Source: Bacillota bacterium (GTDB lineage Bacteria > Bacillota > Bacilli > Alicyclobacillales > SLC66). Taken from it: a DNA stretch of 16,798 nt. Both the position numbers and the translations under genes were made by a program. Of the stretch, positions 1,761 through 16,542 are shown one piece after another. Below the pieces are notes generated by a model, which was not told where the DNA came from, made no database searches, and saw only the letters and a program-made list of their open reading frames with translations. The DNA is taken from NCBI GenBank assembly GCA_021820825.1, contig JAKADD010000011.1, positions 1 to 16,798 of the forward strand, read 5' to 3'. How positions within the stretch are numbered: position 1 is the first letter of the stretch; each line of letters opens with the position of its first letter.

Positions 1761-2810
1761 CTACGATATCCCGGCCTGTACTTCCTGCACCACCGGATCA
1801 CGCCCCGTACCCGTCATCATGCGAAGATCGACAGGATATATCATGGGAACGGGCCCCGCGCCGCCTATCCCAAGTTGCTGGCGCACGAGATAGATCGGCC
1901 GCTCTTTGCTTTCTTCGTAAATTCTCCCAATGTATTCGCCCATGACACCCATCGCAACCAGTTGCACCCCGCCCAGGAACAGGATCACCACCATCATGGA
2001 AGGGTACCCTGCGACGTGATTGCCCAATACCAGTGTCTTGAAGATGATATAAATTCCATAAAAAAATGCCCCCGCCGATACGCACAGCCCAAGATATGAC
2101 GCCAGTTGCAGGGGAACCTGCGTAAACGACGTGATCCCTTCAATGGCAAAATTCCACAACTTCCAATATCCCCACTTGCTCTTTCCTGAATATCTGGGCT
2201 CCCGCGTATAGTAGACATTGGTAGTCTTAAAGCCCACCCAAGCAAAAATCCCCTTCATAAAACGTCTGCGCTCTTTAAGGCCGTCAAGGGCATCAAGCAC
2301 CGGACGGGACAACAGTCTGAAGTCGCCGATGTCGGCTGGAAGTTCAAAGCGCACCATTTTATTGATCAGGCGATAAAACAGATACGCCGTTAACTTCTTC
2401 AAACGAGTATCGCCGTCGCGCGTCACGCGAACCGCATTGACAACGTCATACCCGCTCTGCCACTTGACCACCAGTTCACCCAACACCTCGGGCGGATCCT
2501 GCAGATCAGCGTCCATCGGAATTGCGGCTTGTCCTCTTGCGTAATCCAGACCGGCAGTCAATGCACATTCCTTACCGAAGTTTCGGGATAGATCAATTAC
2601 CTTGACGCGCGGATCCCTGCGATGAAGATCAGCCAGGCGCAACAACGTATCGTCTTTGCTCCCGTCATTAACGCAAATCATCTCCCAGCTCAAGCCGATT
2701 TCCTGAAGAACTGCCAAAGTGCGATCATAAAAAGGAATGATGTTGGATGACTCATTGTACATAGGAACGATGAGAGACAAAATGGGGTTTTCACTATTGC
2801 GGTTGATCAA
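1761..2810 (-). CDS. Family 2 glycosyltransferase, polyprenyl-phosphate sugar synthase (GtrB/DPM1-like)
   Basis: This 349-aa membrane-associated enzyme belongs to the GtrB/dolichol-phosphate mannosyltransferase group, which transfers a hexose from a nucleotide sugar to polyprenyl phosphate on the cytoplasmic face. It has the GT-A start LSLIVPMYNES (11-21), VNDGSKD (47-53), the DxD metal site in MDADLQDPPE (D100, D102), and the acceptor-side stretch DIGDFRLLSR. Two C-terminal transmembrane helices lie at about 236-262 and 275-296, followed by YIGRIYEESKERP, typical of this family. The start is TTG at 2810, backed by a very strong AAGGAGGGG site ending 7 nt upstream; that site begins inside the end of the GtrA gene, whose stop is only 12 bp away. 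The pairing with GtrA and ManC suggests polyprenyl-phosphate mannose as the product, though glucose is common in GtrAB systems. Confidence 0.92.
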   Translation of the reverse strand: MINRNSENPILSLIVPMYNESSNIIPFYDRTLAVLQEIGLSWEMICVNDGSKDDTLLRLADLHRRDPRVKVIDLSRNFGKECALTAGLDYARGQAAIPMDADLQDPPEVLGELVVKWQSGYDVVNAVRVTRDGDTRLKKLTAYLFYRLINKMVRFELPADIGDFRLLSRPVLDALDGLKERRRFMKGIFAWVGFKTTNVYYTREPRYSGKSKWGYWKLWNFAIEGITSFTQVPLQLASYLGLCVSAGAFFYGIYIIFKTLVLGNHVAGYPSMMVVILFLGGVQLVAMGVMGEYIGRIYEESKERPIYLVRQQLGIGGAGPVPMIYPVDLRMMTGTGRDPVVQEVQAGIS

Positions 2811-2822
2811 GAGTACCCCTCC

Positions 2823-3197
2823 TTATACGGATAAAATGTAGACAAATCTGCGACTGAACCAGTAGTTCCATGGAAACACGACGGCAATTGCCAAAACCTT
2901 GCCCAGAACAGACGGCATAAAAAAGGTGCTCGCGTAGATAATCAGCGTACTGATTGTCAAACCAACAACATTGCCGATCGTGAATAGACCAAAGTCCTGC
3001 AAGATGAGTCGACTCGTCGCATGGTCGGAAAAGGTCCAGTACTTATTCATCAGGAAACTGTTCACAACCGCGAGCATGTAGGCTATTGCATTGGCCGTGT
3101 ACAGGTTCATATGAAAAATACTCTGTAAGACTACGAACATCCCGAAGTCGACCATTGTATTCAAAACACCCACCAGAGCAAACTGAACAAATCGCAC
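2823..3197 (-). CDS. GtrA-family membrane protein (putative polyprenyl-phosphate sugar flippase)
   Basis: This is a 124-aa protein with four predicted transmembrane helices (about 5-24, 34-52, 68-88 and 98-118). The opening MRFVQFALVGVLNTMVDFG and the stretch AVVNSFLMNKYWTF are characteristic of GtrA/DPMS-flippase proteins, and it ends with the usual WNYWFSRRFVY. GtrA proteins are thought to move polyprenyl-phosphate hexose from the inner to the outer leaflet so that GT-C type transferases can use it. Start is GTG at 3197 with GGGAGG 7 nt upstream. It is the first gene of the minus-strand operon, with a promoter at 3236-3264, and is translationally linked to the GtrB-like gene: the stop codon overlaps the next Shine-Dalgarno. 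The likely user of the lipid-linked sugar within this window is the GT-C protein at 11327-13003 (inference). Confidence 0.92.
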   Translation of the reverse strand: MRFVQFALVGVLNTMVDFGMFVVLQSIFHMNLYTANAIAYMLAVVNSFLMNKYWTFSDHATSRLILQDFGLFTIGNVVGLTISTLIIYASTFFMPSVLGKVLAIAVVFPWNYWFSRRFVYILSV

Positions 3198-3656: not shown

Positions 3657-3673
3657 GCGGAGGATTGAAAGAC

Positions 3674-4138
3674 ATGTCATTGAGTACAAGTGTTTTTGGA
3701 TATCGACGGACAGAAGTGGATCGCACCATTGCTTCATTAAAAGACGACAGCGCACGAATGAAAGCGGAACTGGAGAGATCTCGCGCGCGTATTGAACAGT
3801 TGCAGGGAGATCTCGAAGAATACAAGGTTACGGTTGCGACACTGCGCAGACAGCGTGTGGATACACCTCAGGGTGCAGACGCTGCTGTAAAACCGCTGAC
3901 ACTTATGATAGGACCCACGGATACACTGGGGATTATTGTAACACTTGTTGAAGATATTGAATCGTCTCCAGAGATGATGATTCGGTTTCGTGTGTTTCGG
4001 GATGGATTTTACCGCATCGATGGATATGCGAAAGATTACGCCTCAATTATTGCGAAACTGCAGAACAGAAGCGACATCAGATCAGTGACAGTAAACGGAG
4101 AAACCGTACATATTATGCCAAGGGGAAAATCAGCATGA
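3674..4138 (+). CDS. DivIVA-like coiled-coil protein with C-terminal alpha/beta domain
   Basis: This is a 154-aa cytoplasmic protein. Residues 1-20 (MSLSTSVFGYRRTEVDRTIA) resemble the start of DivIVA domains, which contain an FxGYxxxEVDxfL pattern and bind curved membrane. A coiled coil follows (about 20-62, rich in Glu, Arg, Leu and Gln). After a linker, residues about 74-150 form a separate alpha/beta domain (LMIGPTDTLGIIVTLVEDIE and later IRSVTVNGETVHIM) that I cannot assign. ATG at 3674 is preferred over the in-frame TTG at 3665 because GGAGG at 3659-3663 would abut the TTG but lies 10 nt before the ATG. The stop overlaps the start of the glycosyltransferase gene (ATGA), so the products are probably made together and may act in one complex. 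A role in recruiting the glycosyltransferase to poles or septa is inference. Confidence 0.72.
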   Translation: MSLSTSVFGYRRTEVDRTIASLKDDSARMKAELERSRARIEQLQGDLEEYKVTVATLRRQRVDTPQGADAAVKPLTLMIGPTDTLGIIVTLVEDIESSPEMMIRFRVFRDGFYRIDGYAKDYASIIAKLQNRSDIRSVTVNGETVHIMPRGKSA

Positions 4139-6393
4139 AACAAATGGTTGAGCACTTCACGGAAAGTGCGCCGCACCAGACAATGCCCGCTTTTTTTTGC
4201 CTGCGCCCCTATCGCATGGGTGCAAACTCTGCACTGATTGATCCGGTCGATCCCAGAATAGCCAAACTGGTCAGTCCAGAGGCGGCGAGAGAGTTTGGCG
4301 TTTTGCCGATTCAGGAAGTTGCTGGGGTCGTTTACCTTGCCGTTCTGGATTGCCATTCCCTAAGAATCAGACAGGTTGCCGACAAAATGGAAGTTGCAGT
4401 ACACATGTGTCTGGTGGAGTCTGAGGATCTTCGCTGGGCTCAGGATCGTGTTTATGGCTTGCCAGACGATATGGACGATCGTCGACTGGGAGGTCTTCTG
4501 CTAGCGACAGAACGCATTAAATCGGCCGACATTGTCAAAGCGCTTGAGCTCCAGCGAAGTAGCGGCAGCCGCATTGGAGCGCTGCTGGCGAGTACGAATT
4601 CAATCAATCATTGGGATGTCGCGAAAGGATTGGCGAGGCAGGCGGGAGTACCGCTTATCGATTTGCTGAACGATGGAATCCCGAGCCCGCTTTTCCTTGA
4701 CCCCTCCGTTCACGAGGTGTGGAATGTCGTTGCAGAGCGGTTCTGGACTCGCCATCTCGCAGTACCGTTATACATGAATGATCGTATTCTCATGATTGCG
4801 ATGGCCGATCCATTCGACGCCGAGACGATCACTGCATTGGAACAGCGGCTAAACAGGCCAGTCAAAGTGTTCGTAACAGGGTATCGCGACATCGCGGCTG
4901 GGTTAAAAATGCGCTACGGGTTTGATCACGAACGCCAAAGTCGCGAAGCTTTACTTGAAACGGACCCGGAAAATTCCGCCCATAAACAGTTATCCAAAGG
5001 GCAGATCGTTACTGGCGCTTTGCTGACTGGAGTTGTGGCGGCGGGATGCGTCTTAAACGCACCGCTCGTTACGGCATTTCTGAGTGCAGTGATCCAACTG
5101 TTCTATTTCTCATACAGCGCGTTCCGCTTTCGGATGATGTATCGGGCAACAAAGACTGCGAGCGAAAAGGTTGTAACTTCAGTGGCATTGTCACAGGTCG
5201 ACTTACACTCCCTGCCTGCCTACACGATCCTGGTTCCTCTGTATAAGGAAACTGCCGTCCTGCCCGTACTTACCAAGGCGCTGATGGGCCTGCATTACCC
5301 AAAAGACCGTCTGGATGTCAAGCTTCTGCTTGAATCCGACGACATTGAGACCATACAGGCGGCGAAAGACGCCAATCTGCCAAACTACATTGAGTTGGTG
5401 CTTGTACCGGCATCGCTTCCGCGGACCAAGCCCAAAGCCTGCAACTACGGACTTATGACCGCCCGTGGAGAATACGTGGTCATCTACGATGCAGAGGATA
5501 TCCCGGAACCAGACCAATTGCTGAAGGCCATCGCTGTCTTTCGTCAGTCTACCGACGAGATCGCATGCGTACAGGCAAAACTGTCCTACTTCAACCACTC
5601 CCAGAATGCTTTGACGCGATGGTTCACTGCGGAGTACGCCAACTGGTTCGATCTCCTTCTGCCTGGCATGTTCTCCATGAATGTTCCCATTCCACTCGGT
5701 GGAACATCGAACCATTTCCGTACGGAGACCCTTCGCGAAATGGGCGCCTGGGATCCTTACAATGTGACGGAAGACGCCGATCTGGGCATTCGTCTTCACA
5801 AAGCGCGTTATCGAACTCTCATCATGGATTCCACCACCTATGAGGAAGCCAATGCGGACTTCGTGAACTGGATTCGGCAACGTTCGCGATGGGTCAAGGG
5901 TTACATCCAAACATGGCTGGTGCACATGAGACATCCCGTTGCACTCAGGCGCGAACTTGGACTGAAAGGATTTCTGGGTTTCCAAATGATTATAGGAGGA
6001 ACACCGCTTGTCTTCCTCCTGAATCCCGTATTCTGGATTATGACTTTCTGGTGGTTCGTGTTCGGTCAAAATGCATTTATCGTTAATCTTTTCCCAAGCT
6101 GGGTCTACTACCTTGCTCTCCTCAATCTGGCTGTGGGGAACTTTGCCTTCATGTACGCCAATATTGTGGGACTGGCTCGTCGAAAGCGTTGGGAACTCAT
6201 CGGCCTCGCCATTCTATCGCCTATCTACTGGGCATTCATGTCGATTGGAGCCTGGAAAGGTCTCTTACAGTTGATCACGCGGCCCTCTTACTGGGAGAAA
6301 ACCATTCATGGACTGAGTGTTTCTCCGCATTCCAGTTCCCTGCCTTACCTTGCAAGCGCAGTTGACACAGACACTCAAGCCGTTTCTTCCTAA
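4135..6393 (+). CDS. c-di-GMP-responsive (MshEN) membrane family 2 glycosyltransferase
   Basis: This 752-aa protein probably makes an extracellular polysaccharide. Residues about 35-108 look like a partial GspE N-terminal subdomain. Residues 112-262 are a full MshEN domain: motif one runs R117-Q140 (RRLGGLLLAT start), a 5-residue spacer follows, and motif two runs R146-Q169, then AGVPLIDL. The 24+5+24 layout is the known c-di-GMP-binding signature. Two membrane helices (about 293-332) precede a cellulose-synthase-like GT-A domain: ILVPLYKE (365-372), DAED (452-455), TED (545-547) and QRSRW (582-586, the QxxRW motif). More helices lie beyond 608. NfrB of E. coli also joins an MshEN domain to a family 2 glycosyltransferase, but with MshEN at the other end. 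It overlaps the DivIVA-like gene by 4 bp. The sugar is unknown. Confidence 0.9.
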   Translation: MKQMVEHFTESAPHQTMPAFFCLRPYRMGANSALIDPVDPRIAKLVSPEAAREFGVLPIQEVAGVVYLAVLDCHSLRIRQVADKMEVAVHMCLVESEDLRWAQDRVYGLPDDMDDRRLGGLLLATERIKSADIVKALELQRSSGSRIGALLASTNSINHWDVAKGLARQAGVPLIDLLNDGIPSPLFLDPSVHEVWNVVAERFWTRHLAVPLYMNDRILMIAMADPFDAETITALEQRLNRPVKVFVTGYRDIAAGLKMRYGFDHERQSREALLETDPENSAHKQLSKGQIVTGALLTGVVAAGCVLNAPLVTAFLSAVIQLFYFSYSAFRFRMMYRATKTASEKVVTSVALSQVDLHSLPAYTILVPLYKETAVLPVLTKALMGLHYPKDRLDVKLLLESDDIETIQAAKDANLPNYIELVLVPASLPRTKPKACNYGLMTARGEYVVIYDAEDIPEPDQLLKAIAVFRQSTDEIACVQAKLSYFNHSQNALTRWFTAEYANWFDLLLPGMFSMNVPIPLGGTSNHFRTETLREMGAWDPYNVTEDADLGIRLHKARYRTLIMDSTTYEEANADFVNWIRQRSRWVKGYIQTWLVHMRHPVALRRELGLKGFLGFQMIIGGTPLVFLLNPVFWIMTFWWFVFGQNAFIVNLFPSWVYYLALLNLAVGNFAFMYANIVGLARRKRWELIGLAILSPIYWAFMSIGAWKGLLQLITRPSYWEKTIHGLSVSPHSSSLPYLASAVDTDTQAVSS

Positions 6394-6426: not shown

Positions 6427-8529
6427 TCAAGTTGTCGGGATTGTCAGACTGTACCCGGTTGCTGTCGCACCAGAACCATTCGTTACGCGCAGACCGGCAT
6501 TCCCGCCCGCAAGCGGCGTCGTGTTCGCGATACCGCCGCTGAATCCAGGAAGAGTAAACGTGATCTGTGCGCTGCTCCAGGAGTCGATGCGCACCTTATA
6601 CCAGTCACTGGGAGCTCCCCAGTTGACGCCATTCTGAGTAAGAGTGATGTACCCCGCTCCCTGTACACTGCCAAAGTTCGTACCATTGACCGTGACAACT
6701 CCAGTCTGCGCATCAATCGAAACGCCTGATATCCCCGGTACTGGAACTGCAGGAATGGTTACGCTGCATTCGGCGGAAACCTCTCCACTCCCAGCCGCAA
6801 TCAGCATATTGGCCGCTGATCCCGGAACCACCCCGCTGCCTGCATTGGGTTGACCTTGCGTCGGCAGAAAATACTTCACCTGATTGTCAGTCCAACTCTG
6901 CACGTTCACCTTATAGTCATCCTGCGGCGCGCCCCAGTTGATCCCGTTGTCGCTGAGATAGACATAGCCCTGGCCGCGGTTCGATCCAAACCCTTTCCCA
7001 GCAACCGTCACAAGCATTCCCGATGGCGTCATTGACATCGTGTAACTCGTGATCGTCGGCGTTTCGGCGACTAACGAGACGTTGGACGCCTTGGGGTTAA
7101 CCGGGTTCGAAGCAGTTTTCATAGCTGCAGACGATGTAGTCACGGAATTTGCAGAATGCATCTCAACCAGCGAAGTCGGTGCGATCACAACCTGTTGGCC
7201 GTTTATGCCCACGGTCTGTGGCACGGACGTGTTATTAATGCCAAACCATGTCGTCGTGAGTCCAGATACAATCGAGGCAACGAGCGTAGAGCCGGAATAC
7301 GTCGTTGTAAGCACACCCCCGGAACCGACTGCCTGCAACAGATTTTCGTAGGCAACCCCAGACGGGTACAGTTGATTCAGTGGCAGTTGCGGCCCGAGAC
7401 CTTCCCCTGCCAGAGAGAAGAGTCCATACGGTGTACCCGGAGTTTCATCAGCCTGAGAAGCGACTGTGCCATTTGCAAGCCACTGGTGAGCATCGCCGTG
7501 CAGCGACCACCAATCGACCTGAGAAGCGCCGCTGGCCAACCAAAGAATCATGCTTTCAGTCAGTGCAACGCCATAAATTCTCCGGATTGTCTGAGGCGGT
7601 TCCTGTTGTGATGGATTGAACTCCGTAATCCAGATCTGCGGCTGCGATCCCTGCACATTGCGGGCAATTTCAGCCTGCGCTTCCGCGACGATGGGCGGGA
7701 TGATGGAAAGCGAACTCAGGAGTCCAGAGTCGCTTCGGGCATTGGGATTAATATAGGTGTGAACGCTGACAAACTGCACATACGGCCCATCCTCGCGTAA
7801 CACGACCTGGTTCCACAGCTTTTCCGTCGTGTAGAGAGAGCTCCCTGTTCCAGAGACGATGTCCACGCCGACTTTCATGGACGGATCAACGCCATGGATG
7901 GCAATGGCCACAGCCTTGGCAACCGCAGCGTAGTTCTGGGGAGTCTTGAGAAGATGGCCCGGAGTTCCCCAGTTGGTATACTCCTCACTCCCCACGACAA
8001 TCGCCCGAATACGAATATGGTGCGACACGACATAATTGATCAGTTGCAGCGCCTGCTGCGCCTCACTGTTCGGATTCCAGGCAGTGCTTGGCCCAATGTT
8101 AAATATAAAAAGCCCCCGCGTCTTTGTCTGCGACAGCATGCTCGCCCAGTCAATCATGGTATAGGGCTGGATGTTCACCCCTAACCGACCCTGCGTCCAG
8201 TGATAGAGAGTGTTGGTCTTCCAGTCGAAATTCCACAGATTCGGATACTGAGTGTATCCAAACCCCATCTGGGAAATCAGGGGAGGTGTACTCGCACTGG
8301 GCATCTGGGCATCCCAGGATCCGATATTCACGCCAAAATTCCATTTTACGATTGGAACGGCGGTGTGCAACCCAGTTGGAGTCGCCGCTTGCGCAGCAGA
8401 GCGCAGTGGATGCTGAACCGTTGTCGTCGCATGTGCCGCCGCAGCGGCCTTCAGGACACTTCCCGGATCAATGATGAAAACCAGCGATAACAGTGCAGTG
8501 CCAATGGCTTGAAGGCGACGTGACAGCAT
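6427..8529 (-). CDS. Secreted clan GH-A-like glycoside hydrolase with two IPT/TIG-like repeats
   Basis: This is a 700-aa secreted protein. A signal peptide covers about residues 1-34 (hydrophobic IGTALLSLVFII, likely cut after an alanine-rich stretch). Residues about 60-385 look like a TIM barrel: FGVNIGSWD, then VVGSEEYTNWG (E182/E183, probable acid/base), then IWITEFNPS (E303, probable nucleophile), followed by DWWSLHGD. A beta-sandwich (about 390-465) resembles that of GH51/GH39-type arabinofuranosidases. Two homologous IPT/TIG-like repeats follow (about 491-594 and 597-700), each with a GxNFG/GKGFG turn and NGxNWGAP. It has no PE[V/T]PLA sorting tail, so it is probably released or held through the repeats. 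The usual Asn-Glu acid/base pair is Ser-Glu-Glu, so activity or family could differ. Start is ATG at 8529 with AGGGG 11 nt upstream. A c-di-GMP riboswitch and terminator precede it. Confidence 0.8.
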   Translation of the reverse strand: MLSRRLQAIGTALLSLVFIIDPGSVLKAAAAAHATTTVQHPLRSAAQAATPTGLHTAVPIVKWNFGVNIGSWDAQMPSASTPPLISQMGFGYTQYPNLWNFDWKTNTLYHWTQGRLGVNIQPYTMIDWASMLSQTKTRGLFIFNIGPSTAWNPNSEAQQALQLINYVVSHHIRIRAIVVGSEEYTNWGTPGHLLKTPQNYAAVAKAVAIAIHGVDPSMKVGVDIVSGTGSSLYTTEKLWNQVVLREDGPYVQFVSVHTYINPNARSDSGLLSSLSIIPPIVAEAQAEIARNVQGSQPQIWITEFNPSQQEPPQTIRRIYGVALTESMILWLASGASQVDWWSLHGDAHQWLANGTVASQADETPGTPYGLFSLAGEGLGPQLPLNQLYPSGVAYENLLQAVGSGGVLTTTYSGSTLVASIVSGLTTTWFGINNTSVPQTVGINGQQVVIAPTSLVEMHSANSVTTSSAAMKTASNPVNPKASNVSLVAETPTITSYTMSMTPSGMLVTVAGKGFGSNRGQGYVYLSDNGINWGAPQDDYKVNVQSWTDNQVKYFLPTQGQPNAGSGVVPGSAANMLIAAGSGEVSAECSVTIPAVPVPGISGVSIDAQTGVVTVNGTNFGSVQGAGYITLTQNGVNWGAPSDWYKVRIDSWSSAQITFTLPGFSGGIANTTPLAGGNAGLRVTNGSGATATGYSLTIPTT

Positions 8530-8790: not shown

Positions 8791-9348
8791 TTAATCGTGT
8801 GCATTCACGCGCCGTTTACGCATCACGTACCACACGCCCAGCATTCCAAACGGAAGAGCCGCTGCCAACGGCGTTTCCGGCAGTGTATCCACAAGCGGCC
8901 CCACGGTCTCCTGATAATACTTGGAGTTTGGAGTCGGAGATATATAATTCATGGACACGTAGACATTCACGGCGCGGCCGAAGTTTGGCAGCGGAATCCT
9001 GTATCGCACTGGATGCGTCGAATACAGGGTTCCAGTTTCCATGATCGGCAGAGTGCCCGAACTGCCAATCTGGCCGATTGGCACAATGGCAGGCGCCACA
9101 GTAAACACAAACCGCAGAGTCTTTGGAGCCGTCAAATCTGCTCCTTTGAAAACCGGGAAGTTCAGGATTACATATTTCTCACCCTTGCGCGCCGTAAACT
9201 TGTGAATCGGTTGCGTTGCATGCGCGGCGGTCTGTGCATGCAATCGCAGAGGTGGATTGTTCGGTGAAGCTGCAAAAGTTGTCATCGTCATCGCCAAAGA
9301 AGCAGCGACCATCCCGCCGAAAATCAATGCTTTTTTCCCGCCAGTCAT
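8791..9348 (-). CDS. Exosortase substrate 1: secreted protein with PETPLA-CTERM sorting signal
   Basis: This is a 185-aa exported protein. The N-terminal signal peptide has a Lys pair (MTGGKKALIFGG), a hydrophobic core and a cut site near TTFAAS. The mature part is beta-rich (VILNFPVFKGADLTAP, METGTLYSTHPVRYRIPLP). The last 30 residues form a tripartite sorting signal: LPETPLA (156-162), a hydrophobic helix with LPFGMLGVWYVM, and RKRR near the end. This is the PEP-CTERM architecture with a variant motif. The ATG at 9348 has AAGGGGGT upstream (8-nt spacing); an upstream in-frame extension lacks such a site and would bury the signal peptide. It is a paralogue of the protein at 13206-13703, sharing ETGTLY, NVYVSM, PNSKYY and ETVGPL. 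It follows Xrt-1 by 145 bp, so Xrt-1 is the likely processing enzyme (inference). The function of the mature protein is unknown. Confidence 0.85.
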   Translation of the reverse strand: MTGGKKALIFGGMVAASLAMTMTTFAASPNNPPLRLHAQTAAHATQPIHKFTARKGEKYVILNFPVFKGADLTAPKTLRFVFTVAPAIVPIGQIGSSGTLPIMETGTLYSTHPVRYRIPLPNFGRAVNVYVSMNYISPTPNSKYYQETVGPLVDTLPETPLAAALPFGMLGVWYVMRKRRVNAHD

Positions 9349-9493
9349 ATCTCTTACCCCCTTATATCGATACCCTAACAGTTGTTCTTGTTTCAAGGGA
9401 AATGGACAACAAGACACTTGCGTTTACGCTGTCGAGTTCCCGGCATGTGGTTGTCACACCAAACTCCGCGCGCCGTTCGTTCCGTGCCGTCCG

Positions 9494-11173
9494 TCATGCA
9501 TTCAGTGCTTTCGATGGGGCTGGCGCCGCCTTGGGATCTCTGAAGATGTGTCGCGCCATACCATGCACAAGGGAGAAGTAGTTTTCCAGATGTGTCGTCT
9601 GATCCGTGTTCAGCAGACCCACCGTTTGCGGCGGCGATCCGTGGTTTGCCAGAAGCATACTCAGTGCAGAGGGCATCGCCGATACAAGCGGATTACTCGG
9701 ATGAATGAAATAGGCCACTGGCGTCGCCGTCTCGGAACGGATGAACGCCACTCGCCCATGATACCGGACTGAATAGGTGTACACCGTATCCAGGTATAGA
9801 TTTCGCGGGCTTCCGATTGCGGCGGGCGCCAACAACACAGTGTACACTGTCGCGGTGATGCCTGGGGCAATCGACAGGGGGCGCTGGTCAATGATCTGCG
9901 CTCCGTGAAACAGGAGGCAATCATGTTCCGTGTACCCTTGTAAAGAAATGGGCTGATACGTCCACCACCATTCCGACAGCACCTGATCGCCATAGATAGA
10001 CCGATACGTCACCGCCGTACTGACCGCTCCCGGTCCTAAAATCGAGGCTGCATCATAGTTTCCAATCGGGTTCACCGACCACCCAAGCACCTTGGGCATC
10101 AGCTTTGGCAATACATTCGACGCCACTGGAATCGGCGTGTGATCAGTTCCCGGCGCTCCCTGATACAGCGGCCACAACAGCACCGTGAGCGCACTCACAG
10201 ATAAAATCGACATTGAGACCCGCACCCTGCCTGGCGTCCGAATCGTTTGCCCCTTTTTAAATTTGCGATTCTCAAGTCCCAGCCAGTGGGAAAATTTCAC
10301 AACGGCGACCACCATTGCAATGAACAATAGTATTCCGAGCACCGGATGAAGAATGCCAAGCGAAAAATTGGGGCCCAGTACATGAATTGAAAAGATGATC
10401 ACGGCCAGACGCAGCCAATTGGCCAGCAAAGCCAGAAACGCTGCAAACAAAATGGACAGGCTCTTCTTCCAGAGCGGACCAGTGAACGTCACCAGCACGA
10501 TGGGCAACAGAATAACCACCGCCAGAAGACTGTCCGCCCCACTGCATACCGACGTGACATACACTGTCACGGACTGGTGGTGAAACATGACCAGATAGAC
10601 GCCAACCGGGCTGCTGGCCGCCAGCCACGAAAATTTATGCGCCAGATCAGTCACAAACCGGTTCGCGAAGTCCTCCAGAACGGGATTTGTGATACTGACA
10701 ATGGACGAATAGAGAGGCGGCCAACAGAGCCATAGGTAGGCCAACGGCCGAATCAGATACTTTGTCACGCCAACCCCAAACACCAGCCAAGCCAGCCCCA
10801 GTGCCCACAGCGGCCAGATGAGCAGACCGGCGCTTTGCCCCACAAAGTAATACTGCCATATGCTGATGCCTGCCACCAACAGAGACCCCGCCAACAACAG
10901 CATCGGAATTCCCATAATTCCGTTCAATTCTGCATCGTCATTGTAACTGAGCGCTCTGCGCAGTTGCCAACCCGCCCATGTAAATGCGAATACAGGAATC
11001 CACACCAGGTACGCATACGGAGTATCCGCCAAGGCGCCGGACCACAAAGGAGTGGCATAGGGAATCAGAGGAAGCGTGCTGCCAATCGCCCATGCATAAA
11101 TCCAGGCGAGTGACCCATTGTGCCTGCGCGTGCCCGTTCTTCTGCTCTGTTCGACCGGAATCTCCACTGCCAT
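9494..11173 (-). CDS. Exosortase Xrt-1 fused to EpsI-like C-terminal domain
   Basis: This is a 559-aa polytopic membrane protein. About eight helices span residues 20-300. The exosortase catalytic triad is visible: C210 in SVCSGADS, R255 in NWLRLAV and H276 in LGILHPVLG. Exosortases are cysteine transpeptidase-like enzymes that cleave PEP-CTERM-type signals outside the membrane. After a further helix (about 318-342), residues about 360-540 form an EpsI-like (DUF3485-type) extracellular domain, with VLGWSV, WWWTYQPISLQGY and HDCLLFHGAQII replacing the usual Cys-Leu-x-Gly-x-Gly-Trp stretch. ATG at 11173 is chosen because CAGGAGG sits 6 nt upstream. Xrt-2 is a full-length paralogue. The neighbours are a GT-C transferase upstream and substrate 1 downstream on the same strand. 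An extended -10 promoter and a conserved 37-bp element lie just upstream. Confidence 0.92.
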   Translation of the reverse strand: MAVEIPVEQSRRTGTRRHNGSLAWIYAWAIGSTLPLIPYATPLWSGALADTPYAYLVWIPVFAFTWAGWQLRRALSYNDDAELNGIMGIPMLLLAGSLLVAGISIWQYYFVGQSAGLLIWPLWALGLAWLVFGVGVTKYLIRPLAYLWLCWPPLYSSIVSITNPVLEDFANRFVTDLAHKFSWLAASSPVGVYLVMFHHQSVTVYVTSVCSGADSLLAVVILLPIVLVTFTGPLWKKSLSILFAAFLALLANWLRLAVIIFSIHVLGPNFSLGILHPVLGILLFIAMVVAVVKFSHWLGLENRKFKKGQTIRTPGRVRVSMSILSVSALTVLLWPLYQGAPGTDHTPIPVASNVLPKLMPKVLGWSVNPIGNYDAASILGPGAVSTAVTYRSIYGDQVLSEWWWTYQPISLQGYTEHDCLLFHGAQIIDQRPLSIAPGITATVYTVLLAPAAIGSPRNLYLDTVYTYSVRYHGRVAFIRSETATPVAYFIHPSNPLVSAMPSALSMLLANHGSPPQTVGLLNTDQTTHLENYFSLVHGMARHIFRDPKAAPAPSKALNA

Positions 11174-11239
11174 GAGAAACCTCCTGTATCGAGTACGCAT
11201 TCGTCATAACGAATATTCCGCACTCGCATTTCTACTCAT

Positions 11240-11248
11240 ATCATACCA
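11240..11248 (-). promoter_or_regulatory. Extended -10 promoter of Xrt-1
   Basis: TGG-TATGAT on the minus strand matches the TGn-TATAAT extended -10 form (5 of 6 in the hexamer). No -35 box stands out. The predicted start is near 11233, giving a leader of about 60 nt. The conserved 37-bp element ends 22 bp upstream of the hexamer. Confidence 0.5.
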
Positions 11249-11267
11249 AGTCATTTGTTGAAGTAGG

Positions 11268-11304
11268 TTAAAATTCACGCTTGGCGACATTAAGAAAACT
11301 TTAG
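11268..11304 (-). promoter_or_regulatory. Conserved 37-bp upstream element, copy 1 (Xrt-1 promoter)
   Basis: This stretch matches 13829-13865 at 29 of 37 positions. The core, read on the plus strand, is TTGGC followed by AAGAAAACTTTAG, the last 13 bases being identical. It lies just upstream of the -35 region of the Xrt-1 promoter, a usual place for an activator to bind. It begins 23 bp before the stop of the preceding GT-C gene, in non-coding DNA. Confidence 0.55.
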
Positions 11305-11326
11305 AGTGCGTGAAACACGATTTACT

Positions 11327-13003
11327 TTAGGGAGCATTTCTCGTGACAAGATAGAGTCTGTCCTGCAAAGGGCCAGGAAACTGTTTGATGAGATGTGTCC
11401 ACGGCACATGACCCGCCCATAATCCAGGGTACTGGTAGTTGATGGCGTCCAACGCCGCCACCCCCACAGGTTTCGGCACCAGAAAGGCGTTAATGCGACC
11501 TAAGGGGTTTTTCAGGTCAGAGTTGAACTGCGGATCGCTCGTGATCACCAACTGGGAATCCTGTTTCATGAATGGAGTCATTTCGCCATTGACAAATGTG
11601 TCAGCCAACACAATCAGGTGTGGACGCACATTGATGTAGTGAGCAATACCCTTGAAAGACAAAATATGAGCGACCGAAACCGCCCCGCCGAAATTGCCCA
11701 CTGTACTAATCACTGGATGACCCGCCTCGATAACCTTGAATGTTCCCCGATCGCCATGCCCAAGATCCGGGCGCAACTGCGACTGGAACGTCTGGAAGTC
11801 TCCCCACACCAGCAGCACCGTCAATCCCGACAGCAGCCAAAACCGCCACCGCCAGTTCCCGCGTGCAATGCGAACGAGATAGGCCGCCAGCAGGATTCCG
11901 GTCGGAATATACATGATAAAGTAGCGCGCCCACAAACCAGAGATGCCCTTGTACAGCATCGCGACCTGAAGCGCGGGCACGGCAACGGCAGCCCCCAGAA
12001 GGACAAATGCCACCGGATCGGGCCGCTTGCGCACGACCATCAGGGCAACCAGCACGAACGCCAGTATGACCGGAGGGAACTGCAAAGCAAAGTGAATCAC
12101 CGTCAGCACGGACTGACCGATGTGGTGAAGCGACAGTTGCGTGAACTTCGTCACATAGGAACCGGTGCCAAGCTGCGCCGTATTGGAATACTGCGAGTTG
12201 GCGAAGTAAAGAGGGTTTTTCATGATGATCCAGTTGGCCAGCACCCACATCACACCCGTGTAGGCGATCGGCAATCCAAGCACAGTCAGCATTCCCTGCA
12301 GTTCTGTCCGCTTCTTGCCCTGCAGCCACAGCCCCACCAGGGCGCCGAGCCCTATAAAGAAGGCGAATGGCGCAGCCTCATACCGAATCAGGAATCCAAT
12401 CGCCAGCCAGATCCCGCTTTTGATCAGGGACTTGAGATCAGCCGTGTCCTGCACATAGCCGATTACGCCATCCAGCGCCCCAAGCAGGGAACCAATCATC
12501 ATCGGTTCGGACATCCCATTGCCCCCATAGAAAAAAATCATGGGGTTGAATACAAATACAAGCGTCCAGACAATACGTCCGGCCCTTCCGATACCCAGAC
12601 GCCACAGGATGCGATTCATGTAGTAAGCGGAAATCCCGGCAAAGACCGCGCTCACCAGATTCCCGGCCACGCCGTAGTCAAGCAGAGGCGGCCACAGACT
12701 GTGAAACAGGAGGAATGGCAACTCCAGAATACTGGGAAGAGGATTCCATATAAAACCAACGGCAGCCAAATTAAACCCGCCGCCATAGAGCACGTAATAG
12801 GCGTTCAGAACACGGGCGTACGCATCGCCTTGAATGAGGCCCATGTGAAACACCATCCACAGCCCGAACGCCAATGAAGACAGACCAGAAAACACGCCCA
12901 ATACTGTGGCCTCGCGAATCGAAAAAGGAACTCTCAGCGCCACACTGGATACTGCGGCACCCTCCCTGCTCTCGCTCACTCGCCTTGGAAACACTAAACT
13001 CAT
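11327..13003 (-). CDS. GT-C fold membrane glycosyltransferase (PMT/ArnT-like)
   Basis: This is a 558-aa membrane protein with about 10-11 helices across residues 30-395 and a C-terminal soluble region of about 150 residues. The first outer loop contains QGDAYAR (Asp near residue 60), the position of the acidic metal/catalytic residue in GT-C transferases that use polyprenyl-phosphate sugars. Other landmarks are GFIWNPLPSILELP, FNPMIFFYGGNGMSEP and FLIRYEAAPF, all seen in PMT-like families. It probably moves a lipid-linked hexose to a protein or glycan outside the membrane. ATG at 13003 is preferred over ATG at 13018 because GGGAG lies 8 nt before the former and nothing suitable precedes the latter. 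It sits between substrate 2 and Xrt-1 on the same strand, so the sorted proteins are candidate acceptors (inference). The acceptor and sugar are not shown by the sequence. Confidence 0.85.
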   Translation of the reverse strand: MSLVFPRRVSESREGAAVSSVALRVPFSIREATVLGVFSGLSSLAFGLWMVFHMGLIQGDAYARVLNAYYVLYGGGFNLAAVGFIWNPLPSILELPFLLFHSLWPPLLDYGVAGNLVSAVFAGISAYYMNRILWRLGIGRAGRIVWTLVFVFNPMIFFYGGNGMSEPMMIGSLLGALDGVIGYVQDTADLKSLIKSGIWLAIGFLIRYEAAPFAFFIGLGALVGLWLQGKKRTELQGMLTVLGLPIAYTGVMWVLANWIIMKNPLYFANSQYSNTAQLGTGSYVTKFTQLSLHHIGQSVLTVIHFALQFPPVILAFVLVALMVVRKRPDPVAFVLLGAAVAVPALQVAMLYKGISGLWARYFIMYIPTGILLAAYLVRIARGNWRWRFWLLSGLTVLLVWGDFQTFQSQLRPDLGHGDRGTFKVIEAGHPVISTVGNFGGAVSVAHILSFKGIAHYINVRPHLIVLADTFVNGEMTPFMKQDSQLVITSDPQFNSDLKNPLGRINAFLVPKPVGVAALDAINYQYPGLWAGHVPWTHLIKQFPGPLQDRLYLVTRNAP

Positions 13004-13063
13004 CGTCATCTCTCCCATTTCATGAAAAAATTCGCTTTGCCCACCGCCGCCGCTATAGATAGC

Positions 13064-13072
13064 AATATATCA
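13064..13072 (-). promoter_or_regulatory. Possible extended -10 promoter of the GT-C gene
   Basis: TGA-TATATT on the minus strand has the TGn extension and 5 of 6 matches in the hexamer, about 60 bp upstream of the ATG at 13003. No -35 box is evident. It resembles the extended -10 sites of the neighbouring genes, but the AT-rich context makes chance matches likely. Confidence 0.35.
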
Positions 13073-13146
13073 AGCACCGTATGAAGAATATCTGGCGGCT
13101 AATCGGCCTGAGTTTCAGGAACGGAAAGTTAGCACATTTTTATGGT

Positions 13147-13179
13147 AGCGCGAGCGGTTCAGGTTCGACCGCCCGCGCT
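13147..13179 (-). terminator. GC-rich hairpin after substrate 2, likely terminator
   Basis: AGCGCGAGCGGT (13147-13158) and ACCGCCCGCGCT (13168-13179) pair over 12 bp with one G-U wobble and a 9-nt loop. It lies 27 bp past the stop of the 13206-13703 gene. Neither side has a clear U-tract, so it may only attenuate or stabilise the transcript end. Confidence 0.5.
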
Positions 13180-13205
13180 TCCCAATACTCCCAAATATAA
13201 ATATA

Positions 13206-13703
13206 TCAACGAGCGGCGTTCAATCGCCGTTTGCGCATCACAAACCACACGCCCAGCATTCCCAGCGGCAGAGCCGCCGCCAGTGGAACCTCTGGCAATG
13301 TATCCAGCAAAGGACCGACTGTTTCCGCATAGTACTTGGAATTCGGGTCCGGAGACGTGTAGGTCATCGACACGTACACGTTCTGGGTATGCCCGTAGTT
13401 CGGAACCGGAATCTTGTAGCTGACAGCGGGACTGCTTTCATACAAGGTTCCTGTCTCGTAAATCGGAGCTGTACTCGAAGTCACGCCTGGCGGTGCAGTC
13501 GTAAATTCAAACTGCAACGTCTGCGGAGGAGTAAGCGCCACTCCCTGAAGTGTCGGGAAGTTCAGGATCAGAGACGTCTCGCCCGAAGAAACCATGACTT
13601 CCTGGGTAACTGGCTGGTTTGTGGCTGCGAATGCAGGCACTGTAACCGCCAAGGACCCTGCCGCCAAACCTGCTGTGACCAAAACTTGTTTCCATCCTCT
13701 CAT
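13206..13703 (-). CDS. Exosortase substrate 2: secreted protein with PEVPLA-CTERM sorting signal
   Basis: This is a 165-aa exported protein. The signal peptide is MRGWKQVLVTAGLAAGSL and onward to a cut site near PAFAAT. The mature part is beta-rich (LILNFPTLQGVALTPP, IYETGTLYESSPAVSYKIP). The C-terminal 30 residues carry LPEVPLAAALPLGMLGVW, then FVMRKRR and a short tail, that is motif, membrane helix and basic cluster. It is a clear paralogue of the protein at 8791-9348, and the sorting signals are nearly identical. ATG at 13703 is chosen because AGAAAGGAGGT, close to a perfect anti-16S match, ends 6 nt upstream; a TTG at 13724 lacks a site. The strong ribosome site suggests an abundant protein. 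The gene is divergent from substrate 3, with 239 bp between. The 37-bp element and an extended -10 box lie in its promoter region. The mature function is unknown. Confidence 0.87.
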   Translation of the reverse strand: MRGWKQVLVTAGLAAGSLAVTVPAFAATNQPVTQEVMVSSGETSLILNFPTLQGVALTPPQTLQFEFTTAPPGVTSSTAPIYETGTLYESSPAVSYKIPVPNYGHTQNVYVSMTYTSPDPNSKYYAETVGPLLDTLPEVPLAAALPLGMLGVWFVMRKRRLNAAR

Positions 13704-13799
13704 TTGTTTACCTCCTTTCTGCAATGGATTGTGGAGTCAGCCTGAAACGTGGACTCCAGTTCATCGTAAGGAACAGCGCGTGTTCACAGACTACTTAGT

Positions 13800-13808
13800 A
13801 TGGTATCA
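13800..13808 (-). promoter_or_regulatory. Candidate extended -10 promoter of substrate 2
   Basis: TGA-TACCAT on the minus strand has the TGn extension and 4 of 6 hexamer matches. Its support comes mainly from position: it is 23 bp from the conserved element, against 22 bp at Xrt-1. The predicted leader is about 90 nt. Confidence 0.4.
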
Positions 13809-13828
13809 GTGTTTTTCGCTTGCGTGCT

Positions 13829-13865
13829 TTAAGTTTCGGGTTTGGCAACTTGAAGAAAACTTTAG
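13829..13865 (-). promoter_or_regulatory. Conserved 37-bp upstream element, copy 2 (substrate 2 promoter)
   Basis: This is the second copy of the element at 11268-11304 (29 of 37 identical, AAGAAAACTTTAG fully conserved). It has the same orientation relative to the minus-strand gene as copy 1 and a near-identical distance to the -10 box. It also overlaps the region upstream of the plus-strand promoter of substrate 3 (13885-13893), so one regulator could control both divergent genes. Confidence 0.55.
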
Positions 13866-13884
13866 CTTAATCTGCAAGCCATTG

Positions 13885-13893
13885 TGCTATAGT
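13885..13893 (+). promoter_or_regulatory. Extended -10 promoter of substrate 3
   Basis: TGC-TATAGT on the plus strand (5 of 6 hexamer matches plus TGn) predicts a start near 13900 and a leader of about 43 nt. The -35 position is poor, as at the neighbouring promoters, and the conserved element ends 22 bp upstream of the hexamer. Confidence 0.5.
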
Positions 13894-13942
13894 TTGCCTC
13901 GCATAGAAATGGAAGGCCATCATTTGGGGGAGTGATAATTTT

Positions 13943-14620
13943 ATGATGCAACGGAAGAAACGCCGACATAAAACGGCCGTGACGGCTGGCGGTGCGCTGG
14001 CGCTGTGGCTGGCGGGCAGCCTCGTCCTTGGCGGCGCTGCATTTGCCAAGTCGGGTGGGTCCGGCGACAATGGGGGGAACGGAGAAGGAACCCTGTCCAT
14101 GTACACAACGCTTGCAAACGCGGAAAGCGGAACCTCTCCCGTCTCGGCGTTGACGGGAGGCCAGACCTACTATTTCGTTCTGGACAATCCAGGCGGGAAG
14201 ACGCCAGAGACGAACCTGAAAAACGTTCCTCCGTCACTGACGTTCAACTTCTACAATCCCGCCCACAATTTTCAGGGGAACCCGAAGAAGGCCGAGAAAT
14301 ACGCCAAGGACATACAGTTCTCGGTTAGCGGTCAACTTGTGAATAGCCACCCGTTCGTTTATCCGGTGACTCTGCCGCTCAACATCGCCACGCCAGGCGA
14401 CTATACGATCGGCACCTTTGGCGTCAATAAGCAGCCGCAATCGAACGGCCAAAACGGCGAGGACGAGTTCTTCTTCTCGACGGACCCTACGATCAACGGC
14501 ACAGTTCTCGTGGAACCGCCGACACAGGGACAAATGCCGGAAGTGCCGCTTGCAGGCGTTTTGCCAGTCATACTGGCCGCAGGCGGCATAGTATGGTTTG
14601 CACGCCGTCGTGCGCGCTGA
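13943..14620 (+). CDS. Exosortase substrate 3: secreted protein with PEVPLA-CTERM sorting signal
   Basis: This is a 225-aa exported protein. A strongly basic start (MMQRKKRRHK) precedes a hydrophobic core and a cut site near GAAFAK. The mature protein opens with a Gly/Ser/Asn linker (SGGSGDNGGNGEG), then a beta-rich domain of about 140 residues (YYFVLDNPGG, SLTFNFYNP, GDYTIGTFG) with no family I recognise. The C-terminus has MPEVPLAGVLP (198-208), a hydrophobic helix and ARRRAR. It shares the sorting signal with substrates 1 and 2 but not the mature domain. The helix differs (VILAAGGIVWF instead of GMLGVW), so it may belong to a different exosortase. ATG at 13943 has GGGGGAG 10 nt upstream. 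The gene converges on Xrt-2, with a strong shared terminator between, which makes Xrt-2 its likely partner (inference). Confidence 0.85.
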   Translation: MMQRKKRRHKTAVTAGGALALWLAGSLVLGGAAFAKSGGSGDNGGNGEGTLSMYTTLANAESGTSPVSALTGGQTYYFVLDNPGGKTPETNLKNVPPSLTFNFYNPAHNFQGNPKKAEKYAKDIQFSVSGQLVNSHPFVYPVTLPLNIATPGDYTIGTFGVNKQPQSNGQNGEDEFFFSTDPTINGTVLVEPPTQGQMPEVPLAGVLPVILAAGGIVWFARRRAR

Positions 14621-14660
14621 CCCACTTGTGTTCGTTGCGCAGCCAGCTTAATTTGAAACC

Positions 14661-14711
14661 GATCATGAAGCAGGCCGCCATCCAGGAATGGAGGCGGCCT
14701 ATTTCATGATC
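14661..14711. terminator. Bidirectional terminator between substrate 3 and Xrt-2
   Basis: This is a 51-bp inverted repeat. The outer arms are GATCATGAA and TTCATGATC (9 bp), the inner arms AGGCCGCC and GGCGGCCT (8 bp), then TCCA and TGGA around a GGAA loop, with only a 2-nt mismatch and a 1-nt bulge. It lies between convergent genes, 40 bp after the substrate 3 stop and 26 bp before the Xrt-2 stop. AUUUC follows the inner stem on the plus strand. Confidence 0.85.
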
Positions 14712-14737
14712 AAACAGTCATTCTAAAGCGGTCATGC

Positions 14738-16456
14738 TCAGGTCTTCGCGGCAGGCGCTGTTGAAATCGGGGCTGTGCTCACAACTGTCTTCATGCTCTG
14801 CCTGGCAAAGGTACGCACGAAGAAGTCAAATGCCTGCAGACTGTTCCGCTCAGGCGCAGTGAGCGTTGGCAGCGCGGACAGCGTTTGCGCGGCTGAACCG
14901 CTCGCGCCATACTGCGCCTTGAGCGCCAACGGCAGCACCGACGCCAGTGGGCCCTTGACCTGCACCCCGTAGCGGATGGGCGTCATGAACTCCGCGCGAA
15001 TGTATGCGTTGCGCCCCTTGTATTTCACAGCATAGATATAGGCAACGTCTTCAAATGCGCCACGGGAGTTGCCGCCCGCCGCATTTGACGGGAGTAACAC
15101 GGCGAACGCTTGCGCCGCGACTCCTGGGTGAACATTAAAATTCTGGCGTCCCAAGACGCTGTAGCCGTGAAAGAGCAGGCAGTTATTTACACCGTAACTC
15201 TGCAGGGCGCTGAGATTGTATGTCCACCATTCCTCCGCCATCATATAAACGCCCTGTCGATTGCTGTAGGCAAAAGCTCTGCCATACGAACCAGGACCCA
15301 GCACGCTGGTCTCGTCAAACGTACCCAAAATGCTGCGGTTGTAGCCAGCCATCTGCGGCATCAGCTGTGACAGATTGTTTGTATTGACGGAAATCGGCGC
15401 GCCGAATGATCCGGCGGCCCAGTTGTAGATGGGCCAAAGCAGCACCGTCAGAACCAGCGCGCCCGCCATTGCGACGCCTGCGCGAATCCAGCCGGGAATC
15501 GGAAGGGATTTGGTCGCTCGCACCGTTTTGCTGCGCACGCCGATCAGTTTGCCGACCAGGGCCAGAATGATCAATGTGACGACAAACAGAATCATGCCAA
15601 GCACCGGATGCAGCGTGCCGAAGGTGAAGTTGCTGCCCACCAGATGGCCGGAGATCACCAGAATGATCAGACGCAGGAGATTCATGACGACGGACATGAC
15701 CGCCGCGAAGCCGATCAGGATCGCTTTCCTTAAAACCGTTCCCTCGAACAACACAAGGATAATAGGCAACAGGATAAGCATGGCCAGAAAACTGTCTGAC
15801 CCGCTGCAGACCGACGACACCTGCACGCCAAACCACTGGCCGGCGTGCTTGACGTAGTAATCGCTGTATACATAACTCACGCGCAGCCAAGGTGCGAAAT
15901 GCGCAAACACAGTCAGACTGGCGTTTGCGAGATTCTCTAAAATGGGATTGGTAACATTGACAATCCAGGAGTAAATGGGCGGCCATACGAGCAGCAGGTA
16001 CAGGAGCGGCCGCACAAGTTTGCCCGTGACGCCCACGCCAAACATTATCCAGGCCAAGCCCAGCGCCCAGAGCGGCCACACGAGCAGCCCTGCCGAATCG
16101 CCCACAAAACTGCCTGCCCACGATGTCATCCCCGCCACCAGCAATGCGCCTGAGAGAAGCAGAAGCAGCACGCCCATAATTCCGTTTAGCTCGGCGTCGT
16201 CCTTATACGCGTCAGTGCGCGACATCGACCACCCGGCCCAGAAAAACGCGAAGACCGGAATCCATACGAGATAGGCATACGGCGTATCGGCCAAGGCGTC
16301 GCCCCACAGCGGCTGGGCATAGGGCAGGATCGGCAAAATGCTTGCCGCGATCCAAACGGCGATCCAACCGACGGATCCGTGCAGCGGACGTGTTCCCGTT
16401 CTGACGCGTTGCCGACCCCTCCGGCTGCGCGATTCAAAATGCTCGCTATTTTCCAT
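14738..16456 (-). CDS. Exosortase Xrt-2 fused to EpsI-like C-terminal domain
   Basis: This 572-aa polytopic membrane protein is a full-length paralogue of Xrt-1. The catalytic Cys, Arg and His are at C217 (SVCSGSDS), R262 (NLLRLII) and H283 (TLHPVLG). Eight or so helices span about 28-310; another helix near 330-350 leads to the EpsI-like domain (about 365-545), with EEWWTYNLSALQSY and NCLLFHGYSVLG, mirroring the Xrt-1 layout. Conserved blocks shared with Xrt-1 include ADTPYAYLVWIPVFAF and DDAELNGIMG. Two starts are possible. GTG at 16516 has AGGGGG 4 nt upstream. ATG at 16456 has CAGGGGGC about 10 nt upstream and gives an N-terminus similar in length to Xrt-1, so it is preferred. A C-terminal tail of about 15 small residues (STAPISTAPAAKT) has no counterpart in Xrt-1. 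The gene converges on substrate 3. Confidence 0.9.
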   Translation of the reverse strand: MENSEHFESRSRRGRQRVRTGTRPLHGSVGWIAVWIAASILPILPYAQPLWGDALADTPYAYLVWIPVFAFFWAGWSMSRTDAYKDDAELNGIMGVLLLLLSGALLVAGMTSWAGSFVGDSAGLLVWPLWALGLAWIMFGVGVTGKLVRPLLYLLLVWPPIYSWIVNVTNPILENLANASLTVFAHFAPWLRVSYVYSDYYVKHAGQWFGVQVSSVCSGSDSFLAMLILLPIILVLFEGTVLRKAILIGFAAVMSVVMNLLRLIILVISGHLVGSNFTFGTLHPVLGMILFVVTLIILALVGKLIGVRSKTVRATKSLPIPGWIRAGVAMAGALVLTVLLWPIYNWAAGSFGAPISVNTNNLSQLMPQMAGYNRSILGTFDETSVLGPGSYGRAFAYSNRQGVYMMAEEWWTYNLSALQSYGVNNCLLFHGYSVLGRQNFNVHPGVAAQAFAVLLPSNAAGGNSRGAFEDVAYIYAVKYKGRNAYIRAEFMTPIRYGVQVKGPLASVLPLALKAQYGASGSAAQTLSALPTLTAPERNSLQAFDFFVRTFARQSMKTVVSTAPISTAPAAKT

Positions 16457-16542
16457 ATTGAAATATGCCCCCTGCTTCACGCGTACGCTCACTTCCAGGG
16501 ACCGATCGAATTTCACAGTTCCCCCTGGCGTCGATCGCGATT

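Follow-up and report, generated by a model that had tools for sequence, protein, structure and literature searches.

A putative C-terminal sorting system in Bacillota: an exosortase group and secreted proteins with a PExPxA tail

Introduction

Can bacteria that lack an outer membrane sort secreted proteins with an exosortase and a C-terminal signal of its own kind? Most pairs of exosortase and tag have been described from Gram-negative bacteria. The question is raised by a 16,798 bp stretch of DNA from a Bacillota bacterium (contig JAKADD010000011.1; the whole stretch analysed is referred to below as the window), in which genes for two exosortase-family proteins, Xrt-1 and Xrt-2, sit together with genes for three secreted proteins, S1, S2 and S3, that end alike. 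A Gram-positive setting can be inferred from the nearest relatives, a Bacillota metagenome-assembled genome (MAG) at 82% and Alicyclobacillus sp. SO9 at 53%; judging by their taxonomy, such hosts presumably have no outer membrane. Excerpts of early surveys place PEP-CTERM systems only in outer-membrane bacteria and none in Firmicutes (PMC1569441, PMC3237569), an excerpt of a comparison of strains reports the system in Leptospirillum only, and no report of an exosortase in Alicyclobacillus was found in the open-licence literature.

On the evidence of sequence comparison, we consider it probable (roughly 85%) that the window represents C-terminal sorting in Bacillota, with an exosortase group unnamed in NCBIfam paired with secreted proteins that bear a PExPxA tail.

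Results

A common tail on unlike secreted proteins

The candidate substrates are S1, which has a signal peptide (8791..9417, minus strand; tail TLPETPLAAALPFGMLGVWYVMRKRR), S2 (13206..13724, minus strand; tail TLPEVPLAAALPLGMLGVWFVMRKRR) and S3 (13943..14620, plus strand; tail QMPEVPLAGVLPVILAAGGIVWFARRRAR). Their tails start TLPETPLAAALP, TLPEVPLAAALP and QMPEVPLAGVLP, respectively, followed in each by a hydrophobic helix and a basic cluster, which is the layout, opening with PE[V/T]PLA, that the initial annotation had recognized in these proteins. The pattern PE.P.A...P was present within the last 45 residues of three of the 12 window genes tested; when the 12 tails were shuffled 20,000 times, three matches never occurred and one match occurred in 11 shuffles. 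S1 and S2 are homologous over their whole length (58% identity), so that the window alone provides two independent bodies rather than three, the body family of S3 being unrelated. Among the matches listed, S2 had 12 homologues in which the tail block was conserved.

The tail was then followed through loci fetched from other genomes (loci and genomes are cited below by our own L and G numbers). From 87 distinct model hits, 69 were retained by pattern and 67 after two basic residues were required, the pattern filter demanding P, then E or F, then P, R, T, A or S two places on, and A, T or P two further. The 67 tails, from the window and the fetched loci together, share the consensus P-E-x-P-(aromatic/Leu)-A-x-x-x-P. 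Pro opens the motif in all 67 and is followed by Glu in 66, Val in 45 and a second Pro in 61; the next position holds Tyr (26), Leu (16), Phe (11), Trp (6) or Val (5), after which come Ala in 62, two less constrained positions, a hydrophobic one and a downstream Pro in 65. The filter favours the counts for the opening P, E, the second Pro and Ala; it has no bearing on those for the downstream Pro and the remaining positions. The proposal that the second Pro and a Leu-Ala pair are fixed parts of the motif is thus not supported: Leu occupies its place in only 16 of 67 tails, so that the pair is better written as an aromatic or aliphatic residue plus Ala, and the second Pro, although strongly conserved, is replaced in L108 (PEVRYA) and L109 (PETRYA). 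The downstream Pro, not named initially, also belongs to the motif.

With both ends removed, 62 bodies fell into 35 BLAST clusters. Among 56 tailed proteins, hand-picked from hits of at least 17.5 bits with near-duplicates and a few others omitted, the Pfam domains (25 of 32 families listed) included GH30, GH16, GH5, CBM6, CBM11 and CBM56 as well as ice-binding, ferritin-like, GDSL, NHL, Hcp-like and fn3 domains; one body in this set resembles the PEP-CTERM protein ScyF (E 1.1e-6). One short tail carried by many unlike secreted bodies is the behaviour of sorting signals, and by this sequence-level measure the PExPxA-type tail behaves as one. A variant tail, LPEVAWPAxLP, was seen on a common body family at L011:19688-20551 and L017:6196-7059, in genomes that carry the same kind of exosortase.

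Two exosortase-family proteins with intact Cys, Arg and His

Xrt-1 (9494..11200, minus strand) and Xrt-2 (14738..16516, minus strand; with a C-terminal beta domain) both passed PF09721 (68.4 and 73.6 bits, respectively; cut-off 25.7) and TIGR04178 (42.0 and 47.2 bits; cut-off 23). Cys237, Arg282 and His303 in Xrt-2 numbering were invariant in a 34-row alignment and in a 26-row set that includes diverged members, in agreement with the intact Cys, Arg and His first noticed in the two proteins. Because relatives start at internal codons, the likely starts are ~9348 for S1, ~11173 for Xrt-1, ~13703 for S2 and ~16456 for Xrt-2, the last of which coincides with the end coordinate of the stretch marked in the initial annotation.

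The AlphaFold2 model of Xrt-2 reached a predicted local distance difference test score (pLDDT) of 82.1, and that of S2 was weak (pLDDT 61.5). A sequence search of solved structures found no exosortase relative, and Foldseek gave no match at E <= 0.001; since a second Foldseek search covered almost only the C-terminal domain, no fold is claimed for the exosortase core. In a tree built by a quick method with a single very distant outgroup, the Alicyclobacillus-like enzymes separated into an Xrt-1 clade (14 rows; Shimodaira-Hasegawa approximate likelihood ratio test (SH-aLRT) 98) and, with lower confidence, an Xrt-2 side (17 rows; 88).

Two further observations concern these enzymes. At L001:18900-19459 the gene for a protein with MshEN and GT2 domains is followed by an additional, third exosortase copy that is broken into two short frames, each of ~100 amino acids. 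The same exosortase and tail protein occur on a Bacillota MAG contig and on one assigned to an Alphaproteobacteria MAG (L015 and L016), which suggests that a contig was mis-binned.

Comparison with named exosortase systems

Both window enzymes scored below the cut-off of every named NCBIfam Xrt subfamily reported for them, a statement that covers Xrt-1, Xrt-2 and the enzymes of L010 and L016 only, because for the rest of that 26-row set the scan gave best E-values without bit scores. The initial annotation had assumed that XrtG, the described Gram-positive family, has no recognized substrate. This proved wrong: the substrate model Firmicu_CTERM (TIGR04145) exists, an XrtG/Firmicu-CTERM pair lies adjacent in our control locus L177 (TIGR04145 116.3 bits, cut-off 50; XrtG 207 bits), and a 2026 paper, in the excerpt available, refers by name to a complete Exosortase G system that includes a Firmicu-CTERM substrate (PMC12854382). 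Gram-positive exosortase pairs are therefore already known, XrtG/Firmicu-CTERM being the one named pair met here, as the single adjacent pair of the control locus. Like the window, that system places a Bacillota exosortase-family enzyme beside a tailed substrate and glycosyltransferases; however, on the XrtG model TIGR03110 (cut-off 102.75) the window enzymes reached at most 16.8 bits (Xrt-2) and the diverged member of L016 37.5, and TIGR04145 was not among the matches for S1 to S3, for ten tails scanned or for the 56 proteins.

XrtA/PEP-CTERM resembles the window system in providing the best-scoring core models, in its polysaccharide neighbourhood and in the P-E start of its motif, whereas the window enzymes reached only 59.8 bits on TIGR02602 (cut-off 105.55) and 53.4 on TIGR03109 (cut-off 208), and the PEP-CTERM model TIGR02595 was not reported for the window tails. 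In three of 25 genomes TIGR02595 gave a match barely above its cut-off (best E 0.137), two of these being PExPxA tails of G019 and G023. Archaeosortase C, which pairs with PEF-CTERM, matches the core, and the tail of L016 aligns with PEF-CTERM across the motif; both scores stay below the cut-offs (TIGR03762 26.6 bits, cut-off 100; TIGR03024 14.3 bits, cut-off 23, in one of ten tails). XrtD/VPLPA-CTERM likewise has a long enzyme whose core is followed by a further domain, yet on TIGR04152 (cut-off 400) the enzymes scored 40.6 and 30.4 bits and the match ended at the core.

A named signal variant was also sought by scanning the ten tails at E <= 10, and was rejected as weak matches only were obtained. 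The MYXO-type model TIGR03382 (cut-off 15.85) was narrowly passed by two of the ten (16.3 and 17.5 bits), from the second Pro or later. Matches that span the motif were below cut-off, namely GVDTG on S3 (20.2 bits, cut-off 29) and the PEF-CTERM match on the L016 tail. A match of the window tails to an already named sorting-signal family, the outcome that would have spoken against a signal of its own, was thus looked for and not borne out at the cut-offs reported. Judged by curated cut-offs, the exosortase group and its suffix-type signal are best described as new and as distinct from XrtG, XrtA, XrtD and archaeosortase C; the initial view of a distinct group with its own signal is upheld by these scores and by the tracking of enzyme and tail across genomes.

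Co-occurrence of tail and exosortase

The genomes examined comprised 59 of one order (that of Alicyclobacillus sp. SP_1) and 249 of a phylum (that of Sulfobacillus harzensis), plus those reached through the loci; the protein searches scored the best 7,998-7,999 candidates. In the order sample, PF09721 was passed in 15 of 59 genomes and all 15 had a tail at E <= 1.2e-6, compared with a tail at E <= 1e-3 in three of the 44 exosortase-negative genomes (G063, G019 and G023; Fisher P = 2e-11). The 1e-3 threshold was chosen afterwards, within the gap between 1.2e-6 (the worst exosortase-positive genome) and 0.0168 (the best of the other 41). When only the seven exosortase-positive genomes without a row in the tail model were considered, the comparison was 7/7 versus 3/44 (P = 1e-6). 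In G063, a fragment of the same kind of exosortase, cut by the contig end, adjoins the tail gene. An absence of co-occurrence, the outcome that would have spoken against the pairing, was thus not borne out; G019 and G023 speak against a strict rule of no tail without an exosortase.

In the phylum sample, PF09721 was above cut-off in six of 249 genomes and the tail was found at E <= 1e-3 in two, G010 and G224, in a search that for some genomes scored 32 candidates. Scored on the family model, the exosortases of these two reached 476 and 307 bits, respectively, that of G224 being a fragment; G010 contributed a row to the tail model and G224 none. The other four PF09721-positive genomes, which lack the tail, gave 24 bits or nothing at E <= 1e-5 on the family model. 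Of these four, G288 has XrtG, G258 has XrtK, G242 has an enzyme that passes TIGR02602, and G174 holds two short exosortase/archaeosortase-family proteins (L116:1465-2277 and L119:1321-2208) below every named subfamily cut-off. G280, below the Pfam cut-off, passed the XrtG model and has no tail.

Gene order and the Xrt-1 and Xrt-2 split

Twelve genomes have a single tail at E <= 1e-3 (G008, G010, G011, G012, G013, G015, G035, G045, G046, G047, G057 and G063; G014 was omitted because its contig matches that of G015). In 11 of them the genes for tail protein and exosortase are no more than ~280 bp apart, with an overlap in seven, counted from the first start codon of each frame. Among the 62 bodies, the S1/S2 family occurs in the window, G001, G002, G004, G006, G007 and G066, each of which has an Xrt-1-type enzyme. 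Six loci (L001, L002, L004, L006, L007 and L105) carry a gene of this family immediately upstream of Xrt-1. In the window a GT-C-like gene separates S2 from Xrt-1, and in G005 an Xrt-1-type enzyme adjoins a tail protein outside the S1/S2 cluster. This arrangement suggests that Xrt-1 may be dedicated to the adjacent S1/S2 family, leaving Xrt-2 as the candidate enzyme for scattered substrates.

The surrounding surface-polysaccharide locus

By its gene content the window reads as a surface-polysaccharide locus. On the minus strand it begins with genes for a ManC-like sugar nucleotidyltransferase/isomerase (344..1711; PF00483 87.5 bits, PF01050 39.7; TIGR01479 205.3, cut-off 373), a GT2 protein resembling polyprenyl-phosphate sugar synthases (1761..2810; PF00535 107 bits) and a GtrA-like membrane protein (2823..3197; PF04138 94.2 bits). 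These are followed on the plus strand by a DivIVA-like coiled-coil protein (3665..4138; PF05103 24.4 bits, missing the cut-off of 28; relatives in 8 of 22 loci) and, overlapping it by 4 bases, a protein with MshEN and GT2 domains (4135..6393; PF05157 77.1 bits, cut-off 23.1; PF13632 91.5 bits; NF053729 26.6 bits, below its cut-off of 38; relatives in 12 of 22 loci), a candidate polysaccharide synthase controlled by cyclic di-GMP (c-di-GMP). The combination of MshEN and GT2 recalls the NfrB-type c-di-GMP-controlled synthase, as described in an excerpt of PMC8669469; this likeness concerns the neighbour gene only, and the window protein differs in its reversed domain order and its score of 48.7 bits against a cut-off of 1170, c-di-GMP binding being putative. 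The DivIVA-like gene accompanies the synthase gene in the window (3665-6393), with relatives in L004, L008, L010, L105, L108 and L109, and its product is a possible undescribed partner of a c-di-GMP-linked polysaccharide synthase.

The minus strand further encodes a secreted glycoside-hydrolase-like protein with an IPT/TIG-like region (6427..8529), both assignments resting on weak matches (PF01833 19.2 bits, cut-off 20.9; NF051901 24, cut-off 625); it has relatives in 2 of 22 loci and no PExPxA tail. Between S2 and Xrt-1 lies the gene for a GT-C-like membrane protein resembling glycosyltransferases (11327..13018, minus strand; weak match, NF047440 28.6 bits, cut-off 200; relatives in 13 of 22 loci). 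At L106:10181-16558, and by eye also in L107 and L016, the exosortase and tail genes adjoin not the MshEN-GT2 module but a DUF3492-plus-GT4 cluster, which we take to be PelF-like.

Discussion

Pairing of this kind would be explained by a pathway in which a substrate is exported and held in the membrane by its tail, which the Cys/Arg/His site of the exosortase then cleaves at PExPxA or close by. The C-terminus thus freed would be attached to an acceptor in the envelope, most probably one that is linked to a lipid or polysaccharide and produced with the help of the glycosyltransferases encoded nearby; glycan-binding and glycan-cutting proteins would thereby be retained in the surface layer. That the exosortase processes the tailed substrates is, as a deduction from sequence, probable, and the odds that they are then transferred to a glycan or lipid acceptor appear about even.

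Several results weigh against such a pairing. Eight of the 15 exosortase-positive genomes contributed rows to the tail model; the tail gene of G013 lies 3 kb from the exosortase gene on the opposite strand; the best tail of G016, where an exosortase fragment lies at the end of a contig, reaches only E 0.02; and G019 and G023 carry seven and eight tails at E <= 1e-3 (nine and ten at E <= 1), while three models detected no exosortase in either. A divergent exosortase was considered for these two genomes and dropped, the family alignment and TIGR04178 giving none above cut-off. Their tagged proteins (L081, L101, L103, L162 and L163 in G019; L080, L102, L104 and L164-L168 in G023) include a GH16 enzyme with carbohydrate-binding modules. 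Such genomes are what would be expected if another protease cut the tails, with the exosortase as an accessory and the two species functioning without it. We regard this as quite unlikely, as both assemblies may be incomplete, exosortase genes are seen to be cut by contig ends in G063 and G016, and tail and exosortase adjoin in 11 of the 12 single-tail genomes. Were the tails instead plain C-terminal anchors that are never cut, with co-occurrence reflecting a common polysaccharide lifestyle, the helix and basic residues would suffice for anchoring; selection on a helix alone, however, leaves P-E-x-P-x-A-x-x-x-P on 35 body clusters unexplained. Nor does it account for the 41 of 44 exosortase-negative genomes that have no tail at E <= 1e-3, and we regard this explanation as improbable.

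The same three-part layout is found in sortase signals, and it could be argued that the tails are LPXTG-like while the nearby exosortases do something else. The LPxTG_anchor model and other sortase-signal models do match a few tails weakly: TIGR01167 gave 14.0 and 14.2 bits in two of ten tails, missing its cut-off of 15.9, and two sortase-signal models gave one weak match each among the 56 full proteins. Yet the tails lack the TG part, 18 of the 67 have another residue in place of the leading Leu, and sortase (PF04203) does not follow the tail in its distribution (present in 10 of 18 genomes with the tail and 26 of 41 without it; P = 0.81) and was not found in seven of the 15 exosortase-positive genomes (G001, G002, G004, G005, G006, G007 and G015), which leaves this explanation with hardly any likelihood. 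A more serious question is whether the enzyme, as a plain protease, cuts and releases its substrates rather than joining them to anything. The acceptor is a candidate and transpeptidation a proposal, which leaves room for release; by analogy, related systems leave their substrates anchored according to an excerpt of a review (PMC11980579), and the neighbouring genes encode glycosyltransferases, so that we consider release somewhat unlikely.

The preferred reading, in which exosortase and PExPxA tail together form a sorting system, can tentatively be taken further, at somewhat less than even odds. In several acidophilic Bacillota in which a sortase was not found, the exosortase may be a general surface-anchoring machine for several unrelated substrates per genome (exosortase-positive G005 has seven tails at E <= 1e-3), attaching these either to an exopolysaccharide under c-di-GMP control or to the lipid that carries it, which would make it the first exosortase pathway for multiple substrates in bacteria that have no outer membrane. 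If the pairing proves true, a suffix-type signal on glycan-active and other secreted proteins of Bacillota that presumably have no outer membrane would mean that the pathway does not need one, and these bacteria would offer a simpler envelope in which to seek the acceptor. It would also open a testable approach to surface construction by the biofilm formers of acid mines, and several otherwise nameless proteins in each genome would gain a predicted location.

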